Both the position numbers and the translations under genes were made by a program. The notes under the pieces were generated by a model, which was not told the origin of the DNA, did not search any database, and saw only the letters and a list, made by a program, of their open reading frames with translations. Positions 22,118-54,634 of a stretch of DNA of 64,000 bases are shown here, piece after piece. The stretch covers positions 62,001 through 126,000 of the forward strand of contig NZ_JACYFU010000001.1 of assembly GCF_014837245.1 (NCBI RefSeq), read 5' to 3'. The DNA comes from Devosia oryzisoli (GTDB taxonomy: Bacteria > Pseudomonadota > Alphaproteobacteria > Rhizobiales > Devosiaceae). How positions within the stretch are numbered: position 1 is the stretch's first letter; each line of letters begins with the position of its first letter.

Positions 22118-22323
22118 CGCCGGACCTTCTCCATGTAGTCAAGTGGAGCAGCTCCGACATCGCCATAGCGGGTAGCCATGACCAGAGGGGCCCGGCGCTG
22201 CCCCGCTAAAATGCGCAAAAAAGAGAAAAGTTCAAGCCCCCCGCCCTCGAGGGCATGGCGAGCAGGCCGCAGGCGCGGAGCTTCTGGCACGTCCCGGCGG
22301 AATGAAAGGCGCGGTCGCCGCGC

Positions 22324-51719: not shown

Positions 51720-52793
51720 CTATGCCACCGCCTGGGTGGTTGCGGCGCGGCGTTTTTCGACGGCGGCGGCGAGAGCCTCAAGGGTCTTAACTGTCGTGTC
51801 CCAACCGATGCAGCCGTCGGTGATGGACTGACCGTAGGTGAGGGGCTGACCCGGTACGAGGTCCTGCCGGCCGGCGACGAGGTTGGATTCGATCATCACG
51901 CCGATGATGCGGTTGTCACCGGAGGCCATCTGGTCTCCGATCTCGGCCAGAACGCGGGGCTGGTTTTCGGGATTCTTGGAGGAGTTGGCGTGGCTGGCGT
52001 CGATCATGATCGCCGGCGCGAGGCCCGCCTTTTGTGCTGCCTTGGCAGCGGCATCGACGCTTTCGGCATCGTAGTTCGTGGTCTTGCCGCCACGCAGGAT
52101 GATGTGGCAATCGGGATTGCCGGTGGTGGCCGCGATGGCTGACTGGCCGTCCTTGGTCACCGCCATGAAGTGATGCGGCTGGCTGGCGGAAAGGACCGCG
52201 TCAAGCGCGATCTTGACGTTGCCATCGGTGCCGTTCTTGAAGCCCACCGGGCAGGAAAGGCCTGAGGCCAGTTCGCGGTGGATCTGCGATTCGGTGGTGC
52301 GCGCGCCAATCGCGGCCCAGGCGACGAGATCGGCCAGATATTGCGGCGTTGTCATGTCGAGGAATTCGCAGGCGGTCGGAAGGCCGAGATTGGTGATGTC
52401 GAGCAACAGGGCGCGTGCGGTGTGCAGCCCCTGGCGAATATTGAAGCTGCCGTCGAGATCGGGATCGTTGATGAGACCCTTCCAGCCCACCGTCGTGCGG
52501 GGCTTTTCGAAGTAGACGCGCATGATGATTTCGAGCCGGTCGCCGAGCTTTTCGCGCAGGGGCGCCAGGCGCGTGGCGTACTCGATGGCGGCGGCCGGAT
52601 CGTGAATGGAACAGGGACCGACGATGACGGCCAGCCGGTCGTCCTGGCCCGTGAGAATGTTATGGAGATCGTGCCGAGCCGAAATCACCGTGCGCGTCGC
52701 GGCGTCGGTGCGTGGATGCTGGCGCATCACCTCGATGGGCGGCGTCAGCGGCTTGATTTCGGTGATGCGGAGGTCGTCGGTCGATTTGAGCAT
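51720..52793 (-). CDS. aroG: 3-deoxy-7-phosphoheptulonate synthase, class I (AroFGH type)
   Basis: A 357-residue DAHP synthase, first enzyme of the shikimate pathway (PEP plus erythrose-4-phosphate). VIVGPCSIHDP, RVYFEKPRTTVGWKGLINDP, GARTTESQIHRELASGLSCPVGFKNGTDG and DASHANSSK are hallmarks of the E. coli AroF/G/H family; many Rhizobiales use the unrelated-looking class II enzyme. Expression is probably set by attenuation: a leader peptide and terminator lie immediately upstream. ATG at 52793. Confidence 0.94.
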   Translation of the reverse strand: MLKSTDDLRITEIKPLTPPIEVMRQHPRTDAATRTVISARHDLHNILTGQDDRLAVIVGPCSIHDPAAAIEYATRLAPLREKLGDRLEIIMRVYFEKPRTTVGWKGLINDPDLDGSFNIRQGLHTARALLLDITNLGLPTACEFLDMTTPQYLADLVAWAAIGARTTESQIHRELASGLSCPVGFKNGTDGNVKIALDAVLSASQPHHFMAVTKDGQSAIAATTGNPDCHIILRGGKTTNYDAESVDAAAKAAQKAGLAPAIMIDASHANSSKNPENQPRVLAEIGDQMASGDNRIIGVMIESNLVAGRQDLVPGQPLTYGQSITDGCIGWDTTVKTLEALAAAVEKRRAATTQAVA

Positions 52794-52827
52794 TTGGTCC
52801 CTCGGGGTGGTGCTGCGAGGGGCCAAG

Positions 52828-52856
52828 AAAAAAGCCGCCTCGGAAGTCGGGCGGCT
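52828..52856 (-). terminator. Attenuator terminator in the aroG leader
   Basis: On the minus strand AGCCGCC (52856-52850) pairs with GGCGGCT (52839-52833) around a 10-nt loop and is followed by a run of six T (52833-52828, sharing one base). It lies 31 nt after the leader-peptide stop and 35 bp before the aroG start codon, where a terminator makes sense only as an attenuator. Confidence 0.8.
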
Positions 52857-52914
52857 GGCTTGCGGTTTGGTCTGGTCTTGTCTGGATCAGGACACGCGCG
52901 CGTTAGCCTCCGCC
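52850..52914 (-). promoter_or_regulatory. Antiterminator pairing in the aroG leader
   Basis: GGCGGAGGCT (52914-52905, inside leader codons 16-19) can pair with AGCCAGCCGCC (52860-52850), which contains the terminator's 5' arm, so the two folds exclude each other. TCCGC (52923-52919) can instead pair with GCGGA (52913-52909), giving the 1:2 hairpin of a classical attenuator. A ribosome stalled on the aromatic codons would cover TCCGC and favour the antiterminator. Confidence 0.7.
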
Positions 52915-52961
52915 GGGAGCGGATAGCTAAAATACCAATAAAAGGTGGCGGCGTTGATCAT
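52887..52961 (-). CDS. aroG leader peptide, aromatic-rich
   Basis: A 24-residue frame, start ATG at 52961, stop TGA at 52889-52887. Residues 7-13 read FYWYFSY: six aromatic codons (TTT, TAT, TGG, TAT, TTT, TAT) out of seven. It precedes the attenuator terminator and aroG. There is no Shine-Dalgarno, but promoter-like boxes would start transcription at or next to the ATG, so it may be translated leaderless, as reported for the Sinorhizobium trpL leader. It senses Phe, Tyr and Trp supply. Confidence 0.82.
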   Translation of the reverse strand: MINAATFYWYFSYPLPAEANARVS

Positions 52962-52968
52962 GAGGCGA

Positions 52969-52997
52969 AAGGTAGCGGGGCAGGCGGAGGTTGTCGA
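52969..52997 (-). promoter_or_regulatory. Putative aroG promoter
   Basis: On the minus strand TCGACA (52997-52992) and TACCTT (52974-52969) are 17 bp apart. Seven bases separate the -10 from the leader ATG, so the transcript would begin at or next to the A of that codon. The -10 is a weak match; the spacing is good. Confidence 0.45.
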
Positions 52998-53032
52998 GCC
53001 CCGACTTTGGTAGGGGCAGGAGTGTTTGAGCC

Positions 53033-53833
53033 TTAGCCTCCCGCGCCTTGGTAATTGCGCAGGCACCAGCGCCAATGGGCGGCCGCGAGGATGACGAAGA
53101 GGGGGCCGATGAGAAGGGAGGCCGCTGGCGCGAGGTCCCCAAGGATCGGCACGGGTTTGCCGAGCACAACGGCGCAGGGGATGAACGCCAGGAAGCCCAG
53201 AGGCGCAAAGGTGATCATCAGGATCTGGAGCGGTGCGGGGAAGATGTTGAGCGGGTAGCGAGCCAGTTCCCAGAAGCCGAAGAAGATCGCAAACAGGTGG
53301 CGCGACCGCACCCAGATCAGAGCGGTGGCACCGATCATGGTCATCAGGGCGGCCACAAGCATCGCCGCGCTGGCGACCGCGGCGGCGAAATAGAGGGCCA
53401 GGCCTGGTGTCCAGGGCAGGTCGAGGCTGAGCAACGCCCAGATCATCAACCCGATGGCCAGCGCGATGTGCCCCCCATATTCGATATTGAGCCCGGAGAA
53501 GGCGAGGAACGTCCACGGGCCGATCGGCTTGACGAGGATGGCGTCGAAGGTGCCGAAGCGGATCTTTTCTTCCATATCGCGGAATTGGACGAAGCTGATG
53601 CAGGCGCCGACCGCGTAGGCGAGCAGATGGAAGGCGAGCAGCAGCGCCATCTGTGGCCAGGTCCAGCCGCCGAGGTTTTCGAAGCGGTTGATGATCAGCG
53701 CAATGGAGGCATACATGCCGCCATACCCGACCGCTTGAGCGATCCACCCAATGACCAGGGCGCTGCGGTATTCCATGTGCGTGCGCACGTGAATGCCGAT
53801 GAGATGGGGCAGGAGGCGAAGTGTGCGCAGCAT
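53033..53833 (-). CDS. ABC-2 family exporter permease, subunit 2
   Basis: A 266-residue protein with six membrane helices in the ABC-2/DUF990 pattern (EYRSALVIGWIAQAVGYGGMYASIALI and FWELARYPLNIFPAPLQILMITFAPLGFLAFIP). It pairs with the similar permease upstream and the NatA-like ATPase. Substrate unknown. Follows the other permease by 3 bp. Confidence 0.85.
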   Translation of the reverse strand: MLRTLRLLPHLIGIHVRTHMEYRSALVIGWIAQAVGYGGMYASIALIINRFENLGGWTWPQMALLLAFHLLAYAVGACISFVQFRDMEEKIRFGTFDAILVKPIGPWTFLAFSGLNIEYGGHIALAIGLMIWALLSLDLPWTPGLALYFAAAVASAAMLVAALMTMIGATALIWVRSRHLFAIFFGFWELARYPLNIFPAPLQILMITFAPLGFLAFIPCAVVLGKPVPILGDLAPAASLLIGPLFVILAAAHWRWCLRNYQGAGG

Positions 53834-53836
53834 GGC

Positions 53837-54634
53837 TCAGCCCCCCTGCACGACCAGCCGGTGGCGGGCGCGCGACCAGAGCCAGCCGGCAAGGGCTGCG
53901 AGCGCGGCGAGCCAGGAGAGGCCGATGAGCAGGTACACCCCGGAGGTCGGCGCATCGAGTTTGCCGAGATAGACGGCGCTCGGATAATAGCTGACCCAGG
54001 CGAAGGGGAGGTGGCCAAGGAGTGCCGCAAGTGCGCCCGGCATGAACCACAGTGGAACGACGGCACCGGAGGCGAGCGCCATGATGCCGCGCAGGAACCA
54101 TTCCAGCGAAAACGCCGTCAGCAGCCAGAAGGCGAGGAGGCCAGTCAGCGTGGCGATCAGGAACAGCATGCACCAGGAGACTGCCCAGAACGCCAGGAAG
54201 AGCAGGCCGTGGGCCGGGCTTGCCGGCGGCAGCAGGCCGACGGTGAGGGCCACGATCACGGCAACCGGCAGGGTGATTGTCAGTTGCTCGAAGGCGTTGT
54301 TGCCCAGCTGGTTGAAGAACAGCAGCGCCGGATAGTGCAGCGGCTTGAGCAGGAACACCGTGACATCGCCATTGCGAATGCTGTCGCCGACCTCGCGGAT
54401 ATAGCGCGTCGTGTTCCAGTTGAGCAGCGGCCCGGCGATCAGCACGTAAGTGACCATGTCGGGCAAGGTGACGCCATCGACATTGCGCGAGCCGGAGAAG
54501 GCTGCCGTCCACACGGCGATGAAGGCGAAGGTGGCGACAAGTTCGCCAAAGACGCCGGACCACACCTGGTTGCGGTAGACAAGGCGCGAGAGGAACGCCG
54601 TGACGGTGAAGGCGGGATAGGCGCTGACCTTCAT
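53837..54634 (-). CDS. ABC-2 family exporter permease, subunit 1
   Basis: A 265-residue, six-helix DUF990-type permease (YRNQVWSGVFGELVATFAFIAVWTAAF; FLLKPLHYPALLFFNQLGNNAFEQLTITLPVAVIVALTVG). ATG overlaps the ATPase stop by ATGA. The two permeases differ, so the transporter is likely a heterodimer. Confidence 0.85.
   Translation of the reverse strand: MKVSAYPAFTVTAFLSRLVYRNQVWSGVFGELVATFAFIAVWTAAFSGSRNVDGVTLPDMVTYVLIAGPLLNWNTTRYIREVGDSIRNGDVTVFLLKPLHYPALLFFNQLGNNAFEQLTITLPVAVIVALTVGLLPPASPAHGLLFLAFWAVSWCMLFLIATLTGLLAFWLLTAFSLEWFLRGIMALASGAVVPLWFMPGALAALLGHLPFAWVSYYPSAVYLGKLDAPTSGVYLLIGLSWLAALAALAGWLWSRARHRLVVQGG

Follow-up and report, generated by a model that had tools for sequence, protein, structure and literature searches.

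The window analysed here, a 64,000-nt stretch of a Devosia oryzisoli contig, carries on its minus strand between positions 52961 and 52828 a compact element composed of a short leader ORF, a spacer, and an intrinsic terminator. After the terminator lies a class I (AroG-type) DAHP synthase gene (51720..52793, minus strand; PF00793, E 6.2e-96), whose ATG is at position 52793 and which is predicted to be the regulated gene. Its product scores 531 bits against TIGR00034, over the cut-off, and 554 bits against the AroG equivalog model NF006723, just under the cut-off of 568, and its close relatives of solved structure include the phenylalanine-regulated enzyme 1gg1/1kfl. The gene is the only place in its genome that matches PF00793 and the only class I DAHP synthase gene there; a class II DAHP synthase is encoded elsewhere, and a scan of the 420 nt preceding that class II gene revealed no aromatic leader. 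An earlier note on this DNA had described a 24-codon frame with FYWYFSY at codons 7-13 in front of a class I DAHP synthase gene. The frame is present and had been placed correctly, and the profile matches agree with the identity given for the gene.

The leader ORF (MINAATFYWYFSYPLPAEANARVS plus stop codon; 52887..52961, minus strand) comprises 24 codons running from the ATG at 52961 to the TGA at 52887, and its start, length, and aromatic run are kept in related loci. The putative regulatory codons 7-13 (52923..52943, minus strand) specify Phe Tyr Trp Tyr Phe Ser Tyr, so that codons for the end products of the pathway are clustered within a short reading frame; the corresponding columns are conserved as aromatic, with variable identity of the aromatic residue. 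The window has 524 ATG-to-stop frames 15-40 codons long, and this one, with six aromatics in seven residues, is the only one to reach four or more; the maximum in a random control of 40 first-order Markov windows (24,020 frames) was five; the run is no chance product of the window. A threshold of at least three aromatics in seven is a weak criterion by itself, being reached by 24 of the 523 other short frames of the window. The reading frame of the leader is open for 558 codons from a far-upstream GTG (52887-54563, minus strand), and the choice of leader start codon therefore rests on conservation and on promoter spacing. This open frame overlaps, in other frames, both ABC-2 permease genes (53033-53833 and 53837-54634), and ORF callers may miss the leader as a consequence.

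Four segments with alternative pairing partners can be delineated in the RNA, all on the minus strand. Segment 1 (52918..52930) is the 5′ arm of a predicted protector hairpin of 12 pairs (-14.0 kcal/mol), in which nucleotides 32-44 of the ORF pair with nucleotides 48-59 and which reaches into codons 11-13; none of 300 synonymous-codon shuffles of the window leader was equally stable. Segment 2 (GGCGGAGGCTAA; 52903..52914) lies inside the leader ORF and may pair with either segment 1 or segment 3. Segment 3 (AGCCAGCCGCC; 52850..52860) is common to the antiterminator and the terminator, and its core, CCGCC, is nearly invariant in 62 leaders. In the antiterminator, GGCGGAGGCT can pair with AGCCAGCCGCC. 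Segment 4, GGCGGCT (52833..52839), forms the 3′ arm of the terminator, and its last T is the first T of the T run (52828..52833). The terminator, AGCCGCC-(10 nt)-GGCGGCTTTTTT, thus ends at 52828, between leader and gene. A simple pattern scanner that accepts loops of 3-8 nt reported no terminator in 52000-54600, the loop here being 10 nt, and the terminator is accordingly identified by its stem, its T run, and its conservation. Both the terminator with T run after the leader stop codon and the alternative 2:3 pairing had been anticipated in the earlier note and are borne out, the latter being kept across relatives; the 1:2 pairing proposed there is present as well, but with its 12 pairs it is longer than stated, and it is strong in Devosia-type leaders but not in general.

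Relatives of the DAHP synthase were obtained by a scan of genome contigs, and the comparison covers the best 80 listed, beyond which more exist. A short upstream ORF with at least three aromatics in seven residues precedes the gene in 78 of these best 80 listed relatives, and 72 have at least four; because the three-in-seven criterion is weak alone, the weight rests on the leader alignment. All 79 sequences, that is, 78 relatives and the window, can be aligned over the leader and possess a GGYGG-T-run terminator, and two of the best 80 (L077 and L078) have the DAHP synthase gene without a leader. The proposal had been framed around Devosia-like bacteria, a restriction that does not hold, as the relatives with a leader span the alpha-, beta-, and gammaproteobacteria. 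By their labels, the genera among the best 80 listed relatives include Devosia, Mesorhizobium, Rhizobium, Kaistia, Rhodopseudomonas, Methylosinus, Inquilinus, Phenylobacterium, Stenotrophomonas, Dyella, Rhodanobacter, Bordetella, Advenella, Massilia, Paraburkholderia, and others. Within the aromatic columns, which are conserved as such, F, Y, and W replace one another, yielding runs such as FYWYFSY, FFFYFYAF, YFWYYF, and FYFYFFWY. One locus labelled Mycobacterium sp. KBS0706 (L018) has a DAHP synthase (73% identical) and a leader that resemble those of Inquilinus (L024, L053), and its label therefore looks wrong.

Helix conservation was assessed on an alignment (A1) of 62 of the 79 leaders; the 17 omitted are 14 close relatives of rows that were kept and three (L061, L063, and L071) judged to be badly aligned, two of which, L061 and L071, have segment 2 located past the stop codon. 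The terminator helix is paired in 94.8% of the cells of A1 and in at most 62.5% when slid, with 12 double-change cells versus 2.0 in shuffles (0/500) and three double-change pairs versus 1.3 (3/500); further pair types showed no excess over shuffles (7 versus 6.4; 218/500). For the antiterminator, 78.0% of cells are paired, against a shuffle value of 72.2% and a maximum of 50.5% on sliding, and there are 44 double-change cells versus 22.1 (0/500); paired cells, covariation score, and double-change cells lie above all 500 shuffles and all slides. No excess over shuffles was seen in A1 for antiterminator double-change pairs (7 versus 6.3; 209/500) or further pair types (22 versus 22.1; 312/500). 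Relatedness can inflate measures of the cell type and affects pair-count and pair-type measures much less, and because these more robust measures are not above shuffles, the antiterminator has moderate covariation support.

The near invariance of the core limits the covariation that can be seen there. The clearest compensation occurs in the rhizobial type, where a C to U change in segment 3 accompanies a G to A change in segment 2 in four rows, and where the terminator tolerates the segment 3 change as a G-U pair. In four other rows of A1, one core antiterminator pair is broken as aligned, the outer antiterminator helices are paired in just 75% and 55% of cells, and RNAalifold applied to A1 returned the terminator alone and no antiterminator. 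The 2:3 duplex outperforms synonymous-codon shuffles (p<=0.05) in 53 of the 79 leaders, with a median z of -1.9. By the same kind of control, all 11 of the 11 Devosia-type leaders have a conspicuous 1:2 hairpin, but only 19 of 79 leaders overall reach p<=0.05, so that this hairpin is not generally above controls. Covariation among orthologous leaders had been put forward in the earlier note as a check on the two folds: the aromatic run, both helices, and some compensatory changes are indeed found, but not every measure exceeds its control.

Ribosome positions were represented by a footprint extending 14 nt upstream and 15 nt downstream of the P site. Equilibrium folding, performed for 76 of the 79 leaders, favours the terminator in nearly all states; for the full-length leader with a stalled ribosome, 2:3 exceeds 3:4 in 16 of the 76, the window not being among them. 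At equilibrium, then, stalling does not as a rule displace the terminator, and the switch has to operate kinetically. In a co-transcriptional model covering 78 of the 79 leaders, the transcript was truncated immediately ahead of segment 4, which corresponds to the moment of decision; leaders left out of either run have no segment 2 by the rule of the script. For the window, this model gives a probability of 2:3 pairing, P(2:3), of 0.81-0.97 with the ribosome on codons 7-11 and 0.61 on codon 13, compared with at most 0.02 on codons 15-24, 0.04 at the stop codon, and 0.01 without a ribosome, so that the three ribosome states are predicted to behave as in the classical scheme.

Across the 78 leaders, mean P(2:3) is 0.83 on the aromatic codons and at most 0.06 at four to eleven codons past the last of them, and in 72 of the 78 the modelled stalled ribosome frees segment 2 for segment 3 (mean P(2:3) above 0.5). 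The mean is already 0.73 before the run, so that a high P(2:3) in the model is not peculiar to a shortage of aromatic amino acids. With the ribosome at the stop codon the mean is 0.37, and without a ribosome it is 0.42; values above 0.5 occur in 29 and 33 of the 78 leaders, respectively, where the timing of release consequently matters. In many relatives, the model suggests, the termination state would depend on a ribosome that still shields segment 2.

A putative -10 element, TACCTT (52969..52974, minus strand), ends 7 nt before the leader ATG, and a putative -35 element, TCGACA (52992..52997, minus strand; 5/6 to TTGACA), lies at a 17-nt spacing from it; GTGACAA-type sequences occupy the -35 place in many alphaproteobacterial relatives. 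Among 78 of the 79 leaders (the upstream sequence of L014 being too short), the best -10-like hexamer ends 6-9 nt upstream of the ATG in 57, versus 221 of 1020 control ATGs, the -10-like score is at least that of the window in 59 versus 24.5% of controls, and the -35 match is at least 4/6 in 53 versus 14.0% of controls. A 5/6 Shine-Dalgarno match in an equal 20-nt stretch was found for two of these 78 leaders versus 43 of 79 DAHP synthase genes. Many of the loci are closely related, so that the promoter and Shine-Dalgarno counts are not independent. With the -10 element ending 7 nt before the ATG, the transcript probably begins at or beside this codon, and the spacing points to a leaderless ORF.

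Codon choice in the leader departs from that of the adjoining gene. Of all Phe codons, UUU accounts for 168 of 211 (80%) in the leaders versus 54 of 475 (11%) in the DAHP synthase genes, and at every one of the 79 loci the UUU fraction of the leader exceeds that of the gene; Tyr codons differ little (UAU, 57% versus 46%). A single tRNA usually decodes both Phe codons. The UUU bias may reflect slow decoding or, alternatively, serve to keep the run unstructured. The bias and the apparent leaderless start are two hitherto unremarked features of the leader.

We consider it highly probable that the element is a ribosome-mediated transcription attenuator of the class I DAHP synthase gene. The attenuation reading set out in the earlier note is well supported by comparison. 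The analysis shows a conserved leader, retention of the alternative helices, linkage to the gene, and the ribosome geometry in silico; where transcription starts, how the switch behaves kinetically, which amino acids are sensed, and any response of the cell are inferred. In the proposed mechanism, transcription would begin at or near the leader ATG, with a ribosome trailing the polymerase. When charged Phe and Tyr (in this lineage also Trp) tRNAs are plentiful, the ribosome would pass codons 7-13 and move over segment 2; once it is past, segments 1 and 2 would close behind it, leaving segment 3 free, and the 3:4 terminator would form and stop transcription before the DAHP synthase gene. Should one of these amino acids be short, the ribosome would halt on the aromatic codons and cover segment 1, and segment 2 would pair with segment 3 before segment 4 is made, allowing the polymerase to enter the gene. 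The apparent role of such a switch would be to turn up the enzyme when Phe, Tyr, and Trp run short. As a widely conserved regulatory RNA, the element would act where aromatic amino acid synthesis begins in many alpha-, beta-, and gammaproteobacteria, with rhizobia, Xanthomonadales, and Burkholderiales represented among the loci.

The distribution of the leader was surveyed with a covariance model (R1), which in the genome of origin finds one place, the window leader. In a sample of 199 genomes from the order, 22 have a DAHP synthase match (E<=1e-20), and the leader is adjacent in all 22. A sample of 398 genomes from the phylum, searched with stricter filters at the cost of weak matches, gave 56 R1 matches, one per genome, of which 48 precede a class I DAHP synthase gene and eight precede pheS- or pheA-like genes. 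Six of these eight are leaders of pheS-like genes, with a 14-residue peptide that we take to be the PheM sequence, and two precede pheA-like genes; a Pfam check confirmed three of the eight genes (one pheS-like and both pheA-like), and the four of these eight pheS/pheA leaders that were tested all match Rfam Phe_leader above its cut-off. A leader accompanies 36 of the 37 best-scoring DAHP synthase matches in the phylum, a cut that was chosen post hoc at the onset of misses; in the exception (G316), a different open frame ends immediately upstream of the gene. At E<=1e-20, a DAHP synthase is matched in 225 of the 398 genomes overall, and in 177 of these 225 no R1 match was found beside the homologue under the stricter filters. 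Inspection of 18 further genes lacking a model match revealed an evident leader missed by R1 in one (G225) and a frame with four aromatics in seven in two. As some sampled genomes may be kin of the sequences in R1, these counts constitute a test of linkage and not an independent discovery.

One further match in the order sample, in genome G499, precedes a tyrosyl-tRNA synthetase gene (tyrS). At this locus (L159; G499:C3:397131-397249, locus position ~532-650), a leader with the sequence MIKTAATFVYFYYVTSIPAAA and a GGCGGCTTTTT terminator lies directly before the tyrS-like gene (PF00579, E 5.9e-71) of a genome in the same order, and it is possibly a Tyr/Phe attenuator of tyrS. A simple scan revealed no aromatic leader before the tyrS gene of the D. 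oryzisoli genome.

No Rfam family was found for the leader, and in the literature searched, leaders of this type are not described for aroG-type genes of alpha-, beta-, or gammaproteobacteria, although comparative surveys (Lopatovskaya 2010, Vitreschak 2004) may contain a prior prediction; no such leader is mentioned in the available portions of PMC2965389, PMC4833913, and PMC5343134. Five leader peptides tested had no NCBIfam or Pfam match. In the available part of a study on Shewanella, aroF and aroH figure among the genes predicted to be under RNA control, with a 1980 E. coli paper cited as the source for aroF (PMC2659441). For the window leader, membership of the Phe_leader family (RF01859) was rejected, as there was no match at the gathering score or at E<=10, and a riboswitch or T-box was set aside, no such Rfam model being matched. 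The Phe leaders of pheA and pheST likewise combine an aromatic-rich peptide, alternative helices, and an intrinsic terminator, but they precede other genes.

Among known systems, the rhizobial trp attenuator comes closest in design. In the accessible text of the reports on S. meliloti, this RNA, rnTrpL, carries its leader ORF at the very 5′ end with a leaderless start, encodes the peptide peTrpL, and is described as a trans-acting small RNA (PMC7298713, PMC10117765). The two share the terminator arms AGCCGCC and GGCGGCTTTTTT and, as predicted for the window, the 5′-end leader ORF, and they differ in that the trp attenuator has WWW codons and precedes trpE. Among Rfam models, RcsR1 (RF02552) matches the window leader best, over the whole of the model, at 20.3 bits and E 0.056; this is below the gathering score of 60, and membership was rejected. 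RcsR1 matches at E<=1 occur in 114 of the 199 order genomes, so that weak matches are mostly background; the only one counted in the D. oryzisoli genome is the window leader, and two rhizobial-type leaders tested gave no RcsR1 match. The two above-threshold RcsR1 loci of the order sample have WWW leaders before trpE-like genes and a very similar terminator, and they are the rhizobial trp attenuator; the name RcsR1 does not appear in the available text of PMC7298713. One genome (G043) carries the DAHP synthase leader and the rhizobial trp attenuator at separate places. With its apparent leaderless design, the DAHP synthase leader would be a second aromatic attenuator of this kind, beside the rhizobial one.

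Attenuators had been described in the earlier note as known for trp and phe genes; attenuation of a DAHP synthase gene, too, has already been reported, for aroR-aroF of Corynebacterium glutamicum. That aroF gene is presumably also of class I. The available sources describe attenuation of aroF with a Phe-Tyr-Phe leader (PMC4046766) and, in a review, a response of the aroR leader to Phe and not to Tyr (PMC11802643). Both systems place an aromatic leader peptide before a DAHP synthase gene, and aroR transcription is reported to rise under Phe limitation; as far as a comparison by description goes, aroR-aroF differs in being actinobacterial, in that Phe-Tyr-Phe alone is named, and in giving no Tyr response. 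The leader described here represents a widespread new case of a known attenuator type, in which the amino acids sensed are suggested by the codons of the run.

Sensing of all three end products, as originally proposed, can hold at most in some lineages, because Trp codons are missing from 20 of the 79 leaders (present in 59). Phe occurs in 79 of 79, and this, together with the loss of Trp, would be expected if the attenuator sensed only Phe, as reported for aroR, with the Tyr and Trp codons reflecting drift between similar codons of little regulatory effect. The Phe-specific response of the C. glutamicum Phe-Tyr-Phe leader, the strong UUU bias of the Phe codons, and the weak R1 matches to known Phe leaders of pheS and pheA all agree with such a reading, to which we assign a real but clearly minor chance. 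However, 78 of the 79 leaders contain Tyr, one alignment column is W in 55 of 79 and is followed by two columns in which 152 of 154 rows have F or Y, and in the window P(2:3) is at least 0.61 with the ribosome on any of the six aromatic codons. The idea that leaders lose their Trp codons in the presence of another DAHP synthase isozyme was not supported in the genomes of 50 of the best 80 loci: a class II enzyme and Trp in the leader occur together in 30 and are both absent in nine, seven (all of the rhizobial type) have class II without Trp, and four have Trp without class II, one of these (L068) with its Trp outside the aromatic run.

A more far-reaching interpretation, which we regard as unlikely though somewhat better than fanciful, holds that the leader is an old, proteobacteria-wide sensor for which a shortage of Phe, Tyr, or Trp alone suffices, that the aborted leaderless mRNA of ~130 nt persists, rnTrpL-like, as a small RNA with a small peptide acting in trans, as reported for the rhizobial trp attenuator, and that the rare UUU codons sharpen the response by slow decoding. 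Far less probable is a TnaC-like arrest peptide, in which the nascent chain would bind a free aromatic amino acid and stall the ribosome. The peptide is conserved and aromatic, and Pro directly follows the aromatic run in 37 of 71 rows, yet the order and identity of the aromatics vary between leaders, so that no arrest motif is kept, and the conserved positions outside the run coincide with paired RNA segments; by pathway logic, moreover, induction by excess product has the wrong sign for a biosynthetic gene. It is equally improbable that the element is no more than a constitutive terminator or a read-through buffer beside a spurious short ORF, alike in relatives because the locus descends from a common ancestor. 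In favour of this reading are the frame, which in the window stays open from far upstream, the sequence that close relatives largely have in common, and the stricter antiterminator covariation measures, which are not above shuffles; against it stand the retention of the leader, the terminator, and the antiterminator pairing in three classes of proteobacteria, the ATG-anchored promoter spacing, and the UUU bias. Attenuation by a translating ribosome remains the preferred reading, and the leader offers a natural test case for the integration of as many as three amino acids by a single leader and for why its Phe codons are the otherwise rare UUU.

Two further observations concern the same genome. 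A simple scan for at least three aromatics in seven residues detected no leader before its chorismate-binding gene in a trpE-like region (L161; C1:770772-771533), whose start site was only roughly checked, in contrast to the WWW leaders that precede trpE-like genes in two genomes of the order. Elsewhere in the window, at 22145-22203 on the minus strand, the terC RNA motif (RF03067) is matched with 53.6 bits, above its cut-off of 39.9.
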